Shown here: positions 35,729-40,776 of the stretch, in pieces
Position numbering within the stretch: the stretch's first letter is position 1
Layout: each line of letters starts with the position of its first letter
NCBI GenBank assembly: GCA_028282805.1
Contig: JANQHD010000036.1
Coordinates: 1 to 40,776 of the forward strand
Source of the DNA: Phycisphaeraceae bacterium
GTDB lineage: Bacteria; Planctomycetota; Phycisphaerae; Phycisphaerales; Zrk34
Reading direction: 5' to 3'
Length of the DNA stretch: 40,776 nt
Notes under the pieces: generated by a model
Databases searched by the model: none
Told to the model about the DNA's origin: nothing
The model's input: the letters and a program-made list of their open reading frames with translations, nothing else
Translations under genes and position numbers: made by a program

Positions 35729-35842
35729 GACCCACCGCGGCTCGCCCACACCCACGCCGCGGGCAAACGCCGAACACCGGTAGCCGGTGACCAACCGAGG
35801 CGAAAAAAAGCACCCGACCGAAGCCGGGCGCTTATCGCGTGA

Positions 35843-35867
35843 TGGGCGGAGGAGGATTCGAACCTCT
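35843..35867 (-). tRNA. 3' end of a tRNA gene (fragment)
   Basis: On the minus strand the sequence GAGGTTCGAATCCTC followed by CTCCGCCCA is a tRNA T-arm and 3' acceptor strand with a discriminator A. The 5' acceptor half (GGGCGGA), D-arm and anticodon arm are absent from the adjoining 150 bp. This is typical of an attachment site left where an integrative element used a tRNA 3' end. CCA is not encoded. Confidence 0.7.
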
Positions 35868-35871
35868 GACC

Positions 35872-35937
35872 TGGCCCTGACCTGCAACCACTACGGAACC
35901 AATGGGTGGTCTAAACATCGGGGGCAGGTCAGGGCCA
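35872..35937. repeat. 14-bp perfect inverted repeat next to the tRNA fragment
   Basis: TGGCCCTGACCTGC (35,872-35,885) and GCAGGTCAGGGCCA (35,924-35,937) are perfect inverted copies. Inside, ACCAC (35,887-35,891) pairs with GTGGT (35,906-35,910). It directly borders the tRNA fragment. It may be a mobile-element end or recombination site. Confidence 0.8.
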
Positions 35938-36247: not shown

Positions 36248-36565
36248 TTATCCTTCGTCTTTCTCACCATTTATGTGTCCCCCATCCTGTTCGCGCATTC
36301 TATGTGCTCGCATTTGCTTTCTTTGCTCATATAATACGTCATGTAAATCAGCATCCAGAATTGGATCGCCTTCCTTAATTAACGGCTCTTCTGGATTCAT
36401 GCGCAACCACTTTTCCCACTTTTCTACGTCATAGCCATAATCGTGGCCAGAGGCTGTTCTTAGATTATCTAGAGCTTCTTCTTTGCTCATGTACTCAAAA
36501 TTTATTGGCGTATAGACGCCTCTCAAGTTATCAAGACTGAGTTCAAGCAGAGTTGATCTTGCCAT
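36248..36565 (-). CDS. putative immunity protein for the HExxH RHS toxin
   Basis: A 105-aa AT-rich gene starting at 36,565 (GAGG seven bases upstream), 19 bp after the stop of the RHS toxin gene. It is acidic and helical (LRTASGHDYGYDVEKWEKWL) with a His/Arg/Met-rich end. It has no signal peptide or TM segment, as expected for a cytoplasmic immunity protein. The role is inferred from position, size and composition; no sequence family is recognised. The frame is open upstream into the toxin gene, but the start at 36,565 fits better. Confidence 0.6.
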   Translation of the reverse strand: MARSTLLELSLDNLRGVYTPINFEYMSKEEALDNLRTASGHDYGYDVEKWEKWLRMNPEEPLIKEGDPILDADLHDVLYEQRKQMRAHRMREQDGGHINGEKDEG

Positions 36566-36584: not shown

Positions 36585-38672
36585 CTAGCCTCGCCACATT
36601 GATAGTGCTCTTTGAATATATTGATGCGATTCAATTTTCTGTTGGGCAGTCAAGCCGCCCAAATACTTGTCTACTATTCTCAGGGCTCGTGTCTCAACTA
36701 GGTATTCGATTCGCCCTTTCATTCGCTGAGCTTGTATTTTCAATGAGACGGGAGCATTTTTAGTTGTCCTGATCATACCAAGGTATTTTTCCCACGTGAA
36801 TCTCGCAGAATGTCGAGCATGGTTCAATTCATGAACACCATTAATAAGCTGTATATGTCGTGGCCCATTAAGCGTTGCCCTGTCTATTGCGATAATTCTT
36901 CTATTATTCACAACAGCAAACCAAGGATCGCTGCCGGTAGTATAGACTACATCATCAACATAGTCGTCCAACTTCCTTCCCGAAGCCTTGGCGGCCTCAT
37001 CCATAATCTCTCTAGCCCTATCTGCATTAGCCCCCTGATGATATAGCTTTTCACTACCATGTCTTGTGTATTTTCCAGAACCCTTCTTTGCCATGACAGC
37101 CGCGCCGTTGTCGAGCTTGCCCGCGGCGCCGGCGGAGCGGGCGAGGTTCCCTGACTTGCCGAGCTTGGCCAGGGCGCCGGGGCCGAACGTCGTCGCGGCG
37201 TCGAACAGGCCCGCCTTGACGGCATCTTTGTAGTGGCCACGGGAGGCGTGCATCGTCGCGCCGCCAAAGGGGATGACCTGGTAAGCGCTCTCGGCCGCAT
37301 CCGCGATGATCAATTTCGATTTGACTTCCGTGTTCAGGTGCTCGGCGTACGCTTCCCATCGGCGAAGTTGTCGGTGATTCCGTTCATTGCGATCGGGGTC
37401 CAGTTCGTCGTAATACAGTTTGAATTGTTTATCAACGAACCACGTCGGCACGTGCCTGAGCTTCCAATCATTTACAGCGTGAATACCAATTTTGGGCACG
37501 AAATGGTCTGGCTGATTCCCATTCTTAACCTTCCCCGCCACCTGCAATTGGACCACGCGTATTTTGTAGCGGCTGTTGAACTCGTAGTCTTGCCAGATAA
37601 CCCGGTAATCACCCTGGTAATCTGCGGGGTCCTTATCCCACTTGGGCTTGTTGCATTTGTTGCCGCTGAGGCCCCATGAATCCTTGCCCTGAACATCGAA
37701 ATAGGCGTGGTGCAGGTTCATGCCATCGGCGTAGCCGGACGGGTCGGGCTGCAACCAGCGCCGGTGGATCGGGTCGTATTCGCGGAAGTGGGTGTGGTAG
37801 AGCCCCGTGTAGCGGTCGCGATACATGCCCGTCCACCCGAACGGCGCCAACGTGCTCCGGCTCACGTTGTCCGCCCCCGGAATGTCGCCGTAAGTTTTGT
37901 CCGTCCATGAACCATCGCCGTCGTCGTCCTGTAGCGCGTAGGTCACGCCCGTCGTGTTGTACTTCAGACGCTCGACTAACTCATAACTCGCCCCCACGTC
38001 GGGTTGCGTGACCACCCCCATCAGCGTCCCGCGGTCGTCCGTGATCAACAGACGACGCTCGTTCGGGTCGTCGAAATCGTTATCCGGGTTGGCCCCCGTA
38101 TAGTTCAAGTTCTCCTCGACCAGGACGGGGTAGTTGATCGCCTTCTCGTAAACGTAGCGGCGCAACAGCTTCGGCGTCGTCTCGATCGTCCACTCTTCAA
38201 TGGGGGTCACGCCCGAGTACACCACAAACACGTCGGGCCAAGCGCCGCCCATCGGTGTGCCGTTCGCCTTGAAGTACTGCTTACGCACGCGGCGGCCGTA
38301 ACCGTCGTACCCGTAACGCGCGTACGACGGGCTGCCCGAGCCAGGCTCGTGCTTCAGGTCCGTCACCTGGATGATCCGGTTGTAAGCGTCGTACAAGAAC
38401 GCAAAACGCTCGGTCGCAAGTTGATTGCCACGCCCGTCGCGCGCCACCGCGTACGTCCCCGCCTCGCCGGCGTTCGTCGGTTCCGCCGCCCCGGCAAGAT
38501 GGCCGACCTCGCCATAACCCAGCTCGCGGTTGTACAGGCGCAGCTCGTCGATCACGCCGGCAAAGTAGTGGCCGACGGATTCGTCGCCGGCGCCGGTGTC
38601 GTGGAAGTAGGTGGTGTGGACGTTGGATGAGCCGACCGTCCCGCCCACGGTCACCGTGCTGGTGTGAGGCCA
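36585..38672 (-). CDS. displaced RHS tip (orphan) with C-terminal HExxH toxin domain, 5'-truncated
   Basis: The frame starts within the tail of a LamG domain (YFAGVIDELRLYNREL), so the protein has lost most of its N-terminus. Residue numbers count from the ATG at 38,654. RHS/YD-type sequence follows (RYGYDGYGRRV) with the terminal RHS core at 272-329: PFGWTGMYRDRYTGLYHTHF, REYDPIHRRWLQPDP. The variable C-terminal part has a pretoxin region (450-520) and ends with GVHELNHARH, a zincin-like HExxH motif (His608, Glu609, His612), and IEYLVETRAL, a possible third-ligand helix. Base composition changes from GC-rich to AT-rich near 37,080, so the toxin end was exchanged. The residues upstream of Met1 remain in frame to about 38,672, past which a stop interrupts. 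It probably arose by duplication of the RHS gene at the right. Confidence 0.82.
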   Translation of the reverse strand, partial: WPHTSTVTVGGTVGSSNVHTTYFHDTGAGDESVGHYFAGVIDELRLYNRELGYGEVGHLAGAAEPTNAGEAGTYAVARDGRGNQLATERFAFLYDAYNRIIQVTDLKHEPGSGSPSYARYGYDGYGRRVRKQYFKANGTPMGGAWPDVFVVYSGVTPIEEWTIETTPKLLRRYVYEKAINYPVLVEENLNYTGANPDNDFDDPNERRLLITDDRGTLMGVVTQPDVGASYELVERLKYNTTGVTYALQDDDGDGSWTDKTYGDIPGADNVSRSTLAPFGWTGMYRDRYTGLYHTHFREYDPIHRRWLQPDPSGYADGMNLHHAYFDVQGKDSWGLSGNKCNKPKWDKDPADYQGDYRVIWQDYEFNSRYKIRVVQLQVAGKVKNGNQPDHFVPKIGIHAVNDWKLRHVPTWFVDKQFKLYYDELDPDRNERNHRQLRRWEAYAEHLNTEVKSKLIIADAAESAYQVIPFGGATMHASRGHYKDAVKAGLFDAATTFGPGALAKLGKSGNLARSAGAAGKLDNGAAVMAKKGSGKYTRHGSEKLYHQGANADRAREIMDEAAKASGRKLDDYVDDVVYTTGSDPWFAVVNNRRIIAIDRATLNGPRHIQLINGVHELNHARHSARFTWEKYLGMIRTTKNAPVSLKIQAQRMKGRIEYLVETRALRIVDKYLGGLTAQQKIESHQYIQRALSMWRG

Positions 38673-38820: not shown

Positions 38821-39249
38821 CTAAGGCTCTAAAATAGGAATCGCGTTGTTCAGACCGATCAAAATGATGTTTTCACCATTCCCTAGCATTTTTACCTCGA
38901 CACAGGGAAATGGAGAATCGCCTTTGCCTAATGAGGCTTCAAAACTCACTTCATCACCTGCATTGCAATATTGCCAAGCAGTCATGTCAGTTTCTGCAAC
39001 CGCAAGAGCCAGCCCGTCTAATACAACTTTTTCGCCATTAGCAAGAAGAATTGAGCATTCAGGCAACATGACATCGACCGTCGCACACAACTCATCAAAG
39101 TCGATCTTTTCAATCTTACCGGTCCATCGAACTTTATTGCTCGAAAAATACTCGGATAGTTCAGCGTTCGATTCGCCTGCTTGAATCTTTTGCTCCAGTA
39201 TCTGGATAAATGTCAACCAATCATCTTGCCAATTAGTCTTGGTATTCAT
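38821..39249 (-). CDS. putative immunity protein for the AHH nuclease toxin
   Basis: A 142-aa acidic protein with low GC content, starting 26 bp after the stop of the AHH-type RHS gene. AAGGA lies eight bases before the ATG. It contains LLANGEKVVLDGLALAVAET and a beta-rich second half ending in LIGLNNAIPILEP. No signal peptide or TM. Position directly behind the toxin gene, small size and matching base composition support an immunity role; I do not recognise a family. Confidence 0.65.
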   Translation of the reverse strand: MNTKTNWQDDWLTFIQILEQKIQAGESNAELSEYFSSNKVRWTGKIEKIDFDELCATVDVMLPECSILLANGEKVVLDGLALAVAETDMTAWQYCNAGDEVSFEASLGKGDSPFPCVEVKMLGNGENIILIGLNNAIPILEP

Positions 39250-39275
39250 AACGGCTAATCCTTGATAATGGCGAT

Positions 39276-40776
39276 TTAATAAGCAGGTACAAATGTACCA
39301 TTCTCGATCGAAGATCGTAAAGTATCTGATGTCTCCTGCAATAGGCGAGCAACTTTTTCATCAGATAAGCCACGCGCCTGCCTTTCGATCCTGCGAAGCT
39401 GTTCGAGCACTACACGATTGTAGTAAGGATGGCCTCCAACGTGTTCCAGGTTCGTGAGCAGTATCCCATTTCCTTTCCCATTCATGTTAAATCCACCTTT
39501 TGCCGCACGCTCCATAAGTGGTTGGAACTTCTTTAATGCTTCTAGCGGGATAATGTGGTGTGCAATCTTGCCGGTACCCTCCGCAGCCAATGCTTCCCGC
39601 AACAATGCACGCTGTGCATTATGGTCTAATCCAATTTCACGAACCAACGACAATCTATCAATTTCTTGCGAGAAGTTGTTAACTGCTGCGAGTTCTGTAG
39701 GAGTCAGTCTTTGCGCAGCATTGGTTTCGTCGATTACCTCTGGAACAAATTTACCTCCCTTGTTTACAACCCTTCTCAAGGCCCAACCCCCAGTTCTTTT
39801 TACCAGCACAAATCCTTTCTGAGCCAATTTGGCAAGAGGTCCCCCCACGGGAAGTGTGACGATTGTCACTGCTCCCTCAAGCATTGCTCGCTTGGCAACC
39901 TCATCAATGAACACCACCGCTGCTTGCAGCCTAATTACCTTGTATTCCGCGTCTTGATAAGTCGAGGGGAACATGTAGACACCATCAGCCGCTTCACTTT
40001 CCCTGATGCGCCATTGCCGCAACTGCCCTGTTTCTATTTTCTCTAGAGGAAGACCGGCGATGATCTGCTGATAGTAAAGAAAGCGATCAATAGGCTCCAT
40101 CTCGCCGGTTCTTACATCACGTAGCGCTCGATAAAGACTTCCTCGATTAACTTTATAATCTGGATAGCCCCACATCGGATCAAGCTTGACGTAGCCATAA
40201 CCAATATGCGTACCCATAAACAGTTTCTGACTGCCGACATTGTCGCCAGGAATATGCCAATAATGTTTCAACTCAGGTACAGCCCAGAACTTATTGCTAC
40301 CGACTACCCAAGCGTTATTCAATTCATCTAAGCCCAACACATCTACCCCATTGACGCCCATGTACGCGCGCCAGGGGTTCATGCCGTCGGGGTAGCCCGC
40401 CGGGTCGCGTTGCAGCCACTGCTCGTGGGCCGTGTCGTACTCGCGGTAGTGCGTGTGGTGCAAACCCGTGAAGCGGTCACGCCACATCCCCGTCCAGCCG
40501 AACGGCGCCAAGGTACTGCGACTGACGTTGTCCGCACCCGGAATGTCGCCGTAAGTTTTGTCCGTCCATGAACCATCGCCGTCGTCGTCCTGGAGCGCGT
40601 AAGTCACGCCCGTCGTGTTGTACTTCAGACGTTCGACCAAACGATAAGACGACTCACCCGAAGGCTTGCTCACCACACCCATCAGCGTCCCACGGTCGTC
40701 CGTGATCAGCATGCGACGTTCGCCGTCGTTCGTGAACGCACCGTCGCCGTCCGTGTCCTCCTCGACCAGCACCGGA
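39276..40776 (-). CDS. RHS-repeat polymorphic toxin with C-terminal AHH-type nuclease domain (partial)
   Basis: The frame runs off the right edge, so the N-terminus is missing. Residue numbers count from the GTG at 40,772. The RHS core end is visible: PFGWTGMWRDRFTGLHHTHY, YDTAHEQWLQRDPAGYPDGM, LGLDELNN (about 90-152). The toxin part ends with IAHHIIPLEALKKFQ, FNMNGKGNGILLTN and VGGHPYYNRVVLEQL, which fits the AHH/HNH-type nuclease pattern (His405-His406 pair, then HPxYN near 448-452). It would degrade DNA in target cells. A 56-bp stretch is identical to the displaced tip (40,537-40,592 and 37,876-37,931). GC content falls sharply from about 40,366 toward the toxin end. Confidence 0.88.
   Translation of the reverse strand, partial: PVLVEEDTDGDGAFTNDGERRMLITDDRGTLMGVVSKPSGESSYRLVERLKYNTTGVTYALQDDDGDGSWTDKTYGDIPGADNVSRSTLAPFGWTGMWRDRFTGLHHTHYREYDTAHEQWLQRDPAGYPDGMNPWRAYMGVNGVDVLGLDELNNAWVVGSNKFWAVPELKHYWHIPGDNVGSQKLFMGTHIGYGYVKLDPMWGYPDYKVNRGSLYRALRDVRTGEMEPIDRFLYYQQIIAGLPLEKIETGQLRQWRIRESEAADGVYMFPSTYQDAEYKVIRLQAAVVFIDEVAKRAMLEGAVTIVTLPVGGPLAKLAQKGFVLVKRTGGWALRRVVNKGGKFVPEVIDETNAAQRLTPTELAAVNNFSQEIDRLSLVREIGLDHNAQRALLREALAAEGTGKIAHHIIPLEALKKFQPLMERAAKGGFNMNGKGNGILLTNLEHVGGHPYYNRVVLEQLRRIERQARGLSDEKVARLLQETSDTLRSSIENGTFVPAY

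Follow-up and report, generated by a model that had tools for sequence, protein, structure and literature searches.

A displaced RHS toxin tip in a Phycisphaeraceae bacterium with a plausible zincin-like metallopeptidase motif and a candidate immunity gene

Does the HExxH motif at the AT-rich end of a displaced RHS protein mark a metallopeptidase toxin, and does the small gene that follows it encode the antidote? We addressed these questions in a window of 40,776 nucleotides (the whole stretch of DNA analysed) from a Phycisphaeraceae bacterium, for which an earlier note, made from the sequence alone, had proposed a zincin-like tip. The minus strand of the window carries an RHS open reading frame (ORF) at 39276-40775, which is cut by the contig end and has an AHH nuclease tip (Pfam, 6e-10), followed by a small ORF at 38821-39249 that is presumed to be its immunity gene from position and AT-richness only. 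Next come the RHS ORF under study at 36585-38654, which encodes 689 aa from a GTG start and is N-terminally truncated, and an ORF of 105 aa at 36251-36565, whose ATG lies 19 nt past the stop codon of the RHS toxin and is preceded by an AGGTG. The RHS-associated core (TIGR03696) was recognised in both RHS ORFs, with 44.2 bits in the truncated ORF (37605..38654, minus strand) and 41.4 bits in the other (NCBIfam, cut-off 32.5), and the two ORFs have 348 bp of core DNA in common at 83.6% identity. The description of the protein as "displaced" is borne out, as the 36585-38654 ORF lacks the N-terminal RHS part and is placed after the first RHS ORF and its neighbour. In its layout the array resembles a main RHS gene with an orphan toxin-immunity module behind it.

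Within the truncated ORF the RHS-associated core gives way to a variable C-terminal tip, as seen from the TIGR03696 match and from an abrupt break in base composition at about 37080. GC at third codon positions (GC3) falls from 0.84 in the RHS core through 0.73 in the linker between core and tip (37080..37604, minus strand) to 0.378 in the tip itself (36588..37079, minus strand; residues 526-689), and the following small ORF has a GC3 of 0.381. Overall GC is 0.437 in the tip versus 0.63 in the core; the AT-rich distal end described from the letters is thus real, and the tip boundaries given for it were right. Because the tip and the 36251-36565 ORF share a GC3 of 0.38, unlike the core, they look like one imported toxin-immunity cassette. 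The region around the AHH tip (window 38821-40775, minus strand) has the same layout, with an AT-rich tip region (GC3 0.44) and an AT-rich neighbour (GC3 0.42).

Two short repeats lie beside the array. At window 35842-35869 (minus strand) a stretch of 28 bp matches the 3′ end of the tRNA-Tyr gene found on another contig of the genome (C29) at 96%, with no tRNA gene present at the window position; judging by sequence it is possibly the remnant of an attachment site. At window 35881-35933 (minus strand) a stretch of 53 bp is 91% identical to DNA close to the tmRNA gene of a further contig (C17), and near that gene C17 also carries an ORF of 200 aa that by eye looks like the N-terminal portion of a tyrosine recombinase and has no NCBIfam match.

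The motif itself was found as described, with HELNHARH at residues 608-615 of the 689-aa RHS ORF and IEYLVETRAL downstream at residues 649-658, both within the AT-rich end. HELNH (residues 608-612; 36819..36833, minus strand) is the sole HExxH in the ORF and would supply the zinc ligands H608 (codon at 36831-36833) and H612 (36819-36821) and the general base E609 (36828-36830). An E...E..A motif follows 36 residues past the HExxH, the environment of the HExxH is uncharged or neutral, and both motifs lie on predicted helices. IEYLVETRAL (36681..36710, minus strand) forms the predicted helix with the candidate third ligand, either E650 or E654, which lie 38 and 42 residues, respectively, from H612. 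The choice between the two is one that we infer from models: antiparallel packing of the two long predicted helices would put E654 opposite H608 and H612.

How readily such an arrangement arises by chance was gauged from 50,000 composition-preserving shuffles of the 164-aa tip. An HExxH occurred in 1.3% of them, so the motif alone is only mildly surprising; its combination with the glutamates is more so, as an HExxH followed at a plausible spacing by an E...E was seen in 0.08% of shuffles. A fuller zincin-like pattern, written post hoc with the sequence already seen, was matched by 0 of 50,000.

Single-sequence structure models of the tip were weak, with a pLDDT of 57.6 for the full tip and 67.4 when the first 11 residues were left out, and both low-confidence models give the same order of elements: a helix, three strands, the HExxH helix, the glutamate helix and a further helix (alpha-beta3-alpha3, or H-E-E-E-H-H-H). 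With these weak models Foldseek returned no match at E <= 0.001 in the PDB or among viral models (BFVD), so that the fold check proposed in the earlier note yielded a predicted order of elements and no significant structural match. The best VIA matches had Z scores of 9.6 (a helical bundle) and 7.1 (a helical stretch). Zincins were not at the top of the Foldseek or VIA lists, and none stood out among the matches listed; the non-significant Foldseek rows include metal sensors (CnrX) and an oxygenase with an HExxH domain (8s5f).

Sequence comparison assigned the tip to no family. It matched nothing in Pfam at E <= 1 or in NCBIfam, and comparison with PHROG, PADLOC and PDB sequences gave no peptidase match. 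Within Pfam there was no nuclease family match, no match to the Tox-MPTase4 profile (PF15640) at E <= 1 and none to Peptidase_M78 (PF06114). When the tip was aligned by hhalign to an M78 profile of 29 domains from 30 loci the HExxH motifs came into register, at a probability of 1.5 and with a score that was reached by 2 of 100 shuffles, which is within the range of chance.

The search for relatives was equally unproductive. Single-sequence searches confirmed none of 7 pattern stretches in viral_contigs and none of 65 stretches in genome_contigs, plasmids and phages gave no relative (at E up to 10 the only match was a polyketide synthase, E 1), and none turned up in the rest of the source genome or in 392 genomes of the phylum, 397 of the class, 400 of the order and 9 of the family, sets which overlap. 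Sub-threshold matches in the family (L003), order (L004-L008) and class (L036, together with L008 once more) were rejected as chance: by eye L004 and L008 look like tRNA methyltransferases, the aligned frame is interrupted by stops in L003, L006 and L007, and no HExxH was seen in the listed ORFs of any of these matches. On sequence grounds the tip appears to be a new sequence family of an already described kind.

We also searched with a zincin-biased DNA pattern built from the two motif halves of the tip (HELxH[A/G], 36 residues, then E...E..A). It matched 14 viral stretches, compared with 6 for a control in which H and E had changed places and 0 when the spacing was shifted by one base; a HELNHARH-like pattern had 0 matches in viral_contigs. 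A Pfam scan of 10 pattern-matched proteins (9 of the 14 viral matches and one of three genome matches to a stricter pattern) found metallopeptidase matches in three, one of them above the cut-off (Peptidase_M78, L012). Taken with the controls, these matches indicate that the pattern leans towards real zincins, on small counts. Three of 12 pattern-matched proteins aligned to the tip (L012, L013 and L016) beat all but at most one of 300 shuffles and the other 9 did not; L015, L021, L022, L024 and L025 were outside this alignment set, L021 and L022 being repeats of L011 and L010. As the pattern itself had selected the shared motif, these alignment scores are no evidence of homology, and the pattern matches were rejected as relatives of the tip, including the three stricter-pattern matches from genome_contigs, which are not close relatives.

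The ORF at 36251-36565 is likely to be the antidote gene of the tip. Its product has no apparent signal peptide or membrane helix (the highest 19-residue hydropathy is 0.34), which suggests the cytoplasm as the probable site of action of the toxin. It matched no Pfam model, so that no HEAT repeats of its own were recognised, and no relative was found on plasmids. Weak matches were present in 6 of 300 other genomes of the order, all confined to residues 17-67, and the three longer matching proteins that were scanned (L031, L033 and L035) all carry HEAT repeats, with the matching motif after the repeats. Judged by these alignments, the product has the motif with which HEAT-repeat proteins of its order are capped. 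For other toxins, the sections available to us of a survey of polymorphic toxins list immunity proteins of the HEAT type (Zhang et al. 2012, PMC3482391).

The same genome holds a second RHS array, which runs to the end of contig C54 (L074:1-11639, also L073) and consists of a long RHS gene, an ORF of 233 aa, a displaced Tox-MPTase4 tip, an ORF of 80 aa and an RHS core fragment. A Tox-MPTase4 profile search of phylum genomes had one match among 199, namely this contig of the source genome itself. The tip (L074:8869-9744; 33 bits, Pfam cut-off 25) comes after a complete RHS gene, and the 80-aa ORF and then the further RHS core fragment come next. The long RHS protein has a transglutaminase-like domain near its N-terminus, and the N-terminus itself may be a planctomycete export signal, which one NCBIfam scan did not name. 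No relatives of the Tox-MPTase4 tip were found in viral_contigs, and matches to it came from two plasmid records of E. coli. Comparison of the window tip with the Tox-MPTase4 tip gave a BLASTP E value of 0.13 and a local score reached by 736 of 2000 shuffles; given this lack of significant similarity, there seem to be two metallopeptidase-like tips in the genome that have no detectable relation to each other.

Taken together, we consider it probable, at a level that leaves appreciable room for other readings, that the tip is a toxin domain, a small metallopeptidase of gluzincin-like type, carried after an RHS gene in a displaced cassette that is silent. The zincin assignment is plausible and is partly supported by the motif, the candidate glutamate helix, the predicted order of secondary structure and the toxin-cassette context. 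The pattern search with its controls, a ligand spacing close to that of VgrG2b and the presence of a recognised Tox-MPTase4 tip elsewhere in the genome also speak for it, while the lack of detectable similarity to that Tox-MPTase4 tip and the chance-level M78 alignment speak against it. The proposal of a metallopeptidase-type tip therefore stands as the best-supported reading of this evidence, with weak fold models and the lack of any significant match against it. The main competing explanation, which we regard as rather unlikely, is that the HExxH arose by chance and that the toxin has some other or unknown activity, for instance that of a nuclease like the neighbouring AHH tip. Such an origin would fit the frequency of the bare motif among the shuffles, the absence of any family or fold match and the fact that no homologues were found that could show conservation of the motif. 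It is opposed by the rarity of the HExxH together with the glutamate helix (0.08% of shuffles or fewer), by the lack of a match to any nuclease family, and by the predicted succession of three strands and two helices in which the motif is set, which is what a zincin requires. If the HExxH were fortuitous, the tip would still be an unassigned toxin cassette of a common kind.

A metal-binding domain of the helical-bundle type, with other chemistry and no peptidase activity, seems quite improbable as the nature of the tip: the long helices of both models do match helical bundles best, and the CnrX sensors and the HExxH-domain oxygenase appear among the non-significant Foldseek rows, but these matches are at noise level and the three strands predicted ahead of the HExxH helix are foreign to such bundles. 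Still less credible, and in our estimation very improbable, is the view that the domain serves as a processing peptidase, releasing itself or some other part of the RHS protein, and is not the toxic principle. PVC-metallopeptidases are described as releasing enzymes of polymorphic toxins in the available part of the 2012 survey (PMC3482391), which gives this idea a precedent; the window tip, however, is at the extreme C-terminus, the position of RHS toxins, no domain follows it, and its foreign composition is common to the adjacent small gene.

If the tip is a gluzincin-like toxin, H608 and H612 together with E654 (or E650) would bind zinc, and E609 would be the base that activates the water. 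The tip would become deliverable once homologous recombination through the shared RHS core had fused it to a full-length RHS protein, and would then cleave at least one cytoplasmic protein of a competing cell, while in the producer cell the product of 36251-36565 would bind and block it. A bolder version, possible but doubtful, is that the tip represents a zincin toxin family not seen before, without relatives in the searched collections, which is active in the cytoplasm and whose antidote is a very small immunity protein built around a HEAT-array C-terminal cap. If true, this would provide an immunity partner for RHS-type metallopeptidase tips beyond the DUF4157/VgrG2b kind, in a planctomycete-like lineage with no detected type VI secretion system (T6SS). 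If the favoured metallopeptidase reading is right, an orphan sequence family would join the short list of RHS protease tips, and the locus would offer a compact pair of toxin and candidate antidote for finding the target of a cytoplasmic antibacterial metallopeptidase. A real toxin-antidote pair would be useful because the Tox-MPTase families are without listed immunity proteins in the part of the 2012 survey available to us.

The earlier note had held that a protease tip would be notable among RHS toxins. The list of such tips is indeed short, but the point is weaker than stated, given the zincin RHS tips listed in 2012, VgrG2b and the Tox-MPTase4 tip of this very genome. In its available sections the survey describes, for RHS proteins and their kin, metallopeptidase toxin domains with an HExxH, comprising HopH1-like, anthrax-lethal-factor-like and Tox-MPTase1-5 domains, and lists Tox-MPTase4 for planctomycetes too (Zhang et al. 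2012, PMC3482391). The Tox-MPTase1-5 and HopH1-like domains are of zincin type, and the window tip is comparable to them in its HExxH, in its size and in its place at the C-terminal end of an RHS protein, which in their case may also be a related polymorphic toxin. The tip differs from Tox-MPTase4 in that Pfam gave no match at E <= 1 and the representative in this genome is not significantly similar to it, and, whereas the survey's table, as far as available, gives no immunity protein for Tox-MPTase1-5 (PMC3482391), the window tip is adjoined by a candidate immunity gene.

A second comparison is with the T6SS pairs VgrG2b C-terminal domain/PA0261 and Tpe1/Tpi1. VgrG2b is a crystallised gluzincin, antibacterial by experiment, whose third ligand E983 lies 44 residues past the second histidine, H939 (PMC6899460, in the portion available). 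These pairs have a gluzincin HExxH, a glutamate third ligand about 40 residues further on and a small immunity gene after the toxin, according to the same portion of that paper (PMC6899460); their counterparts in the window are the HExxH, the candidate ligands E650 and E654 and the candidate immunity gene. According to that source VgrG2b and Tpe1 act in the periplasm and their immunity proteins are exported, whereas the candidate immunity protein of the window has no apparent signal peptide; moreover, VgrG2b and Tpe1 are T6SS effectors, whereas the genome of the window, 99.79% complete, shows no VipB or PAAR match. The arrangement of the locus is closest to the orphan rhs-CT/rhsI modules described in the available part of Koskiniemi et al. 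2014 (PMC3967940), where, as in the window with its candidate immunity gene, a truncated RHS core with a tip and an immunity gene stands downstream of another rhs gene with which it shares core DNA. The shared core is 522 bp at 95% in Salmonella (PMC3967940) versus 348 bp at 83.6% here, and in Salmonella LT2 recombination was shown to be able to fuse an orphan rhs module to the main gene, as is proposed for the window.
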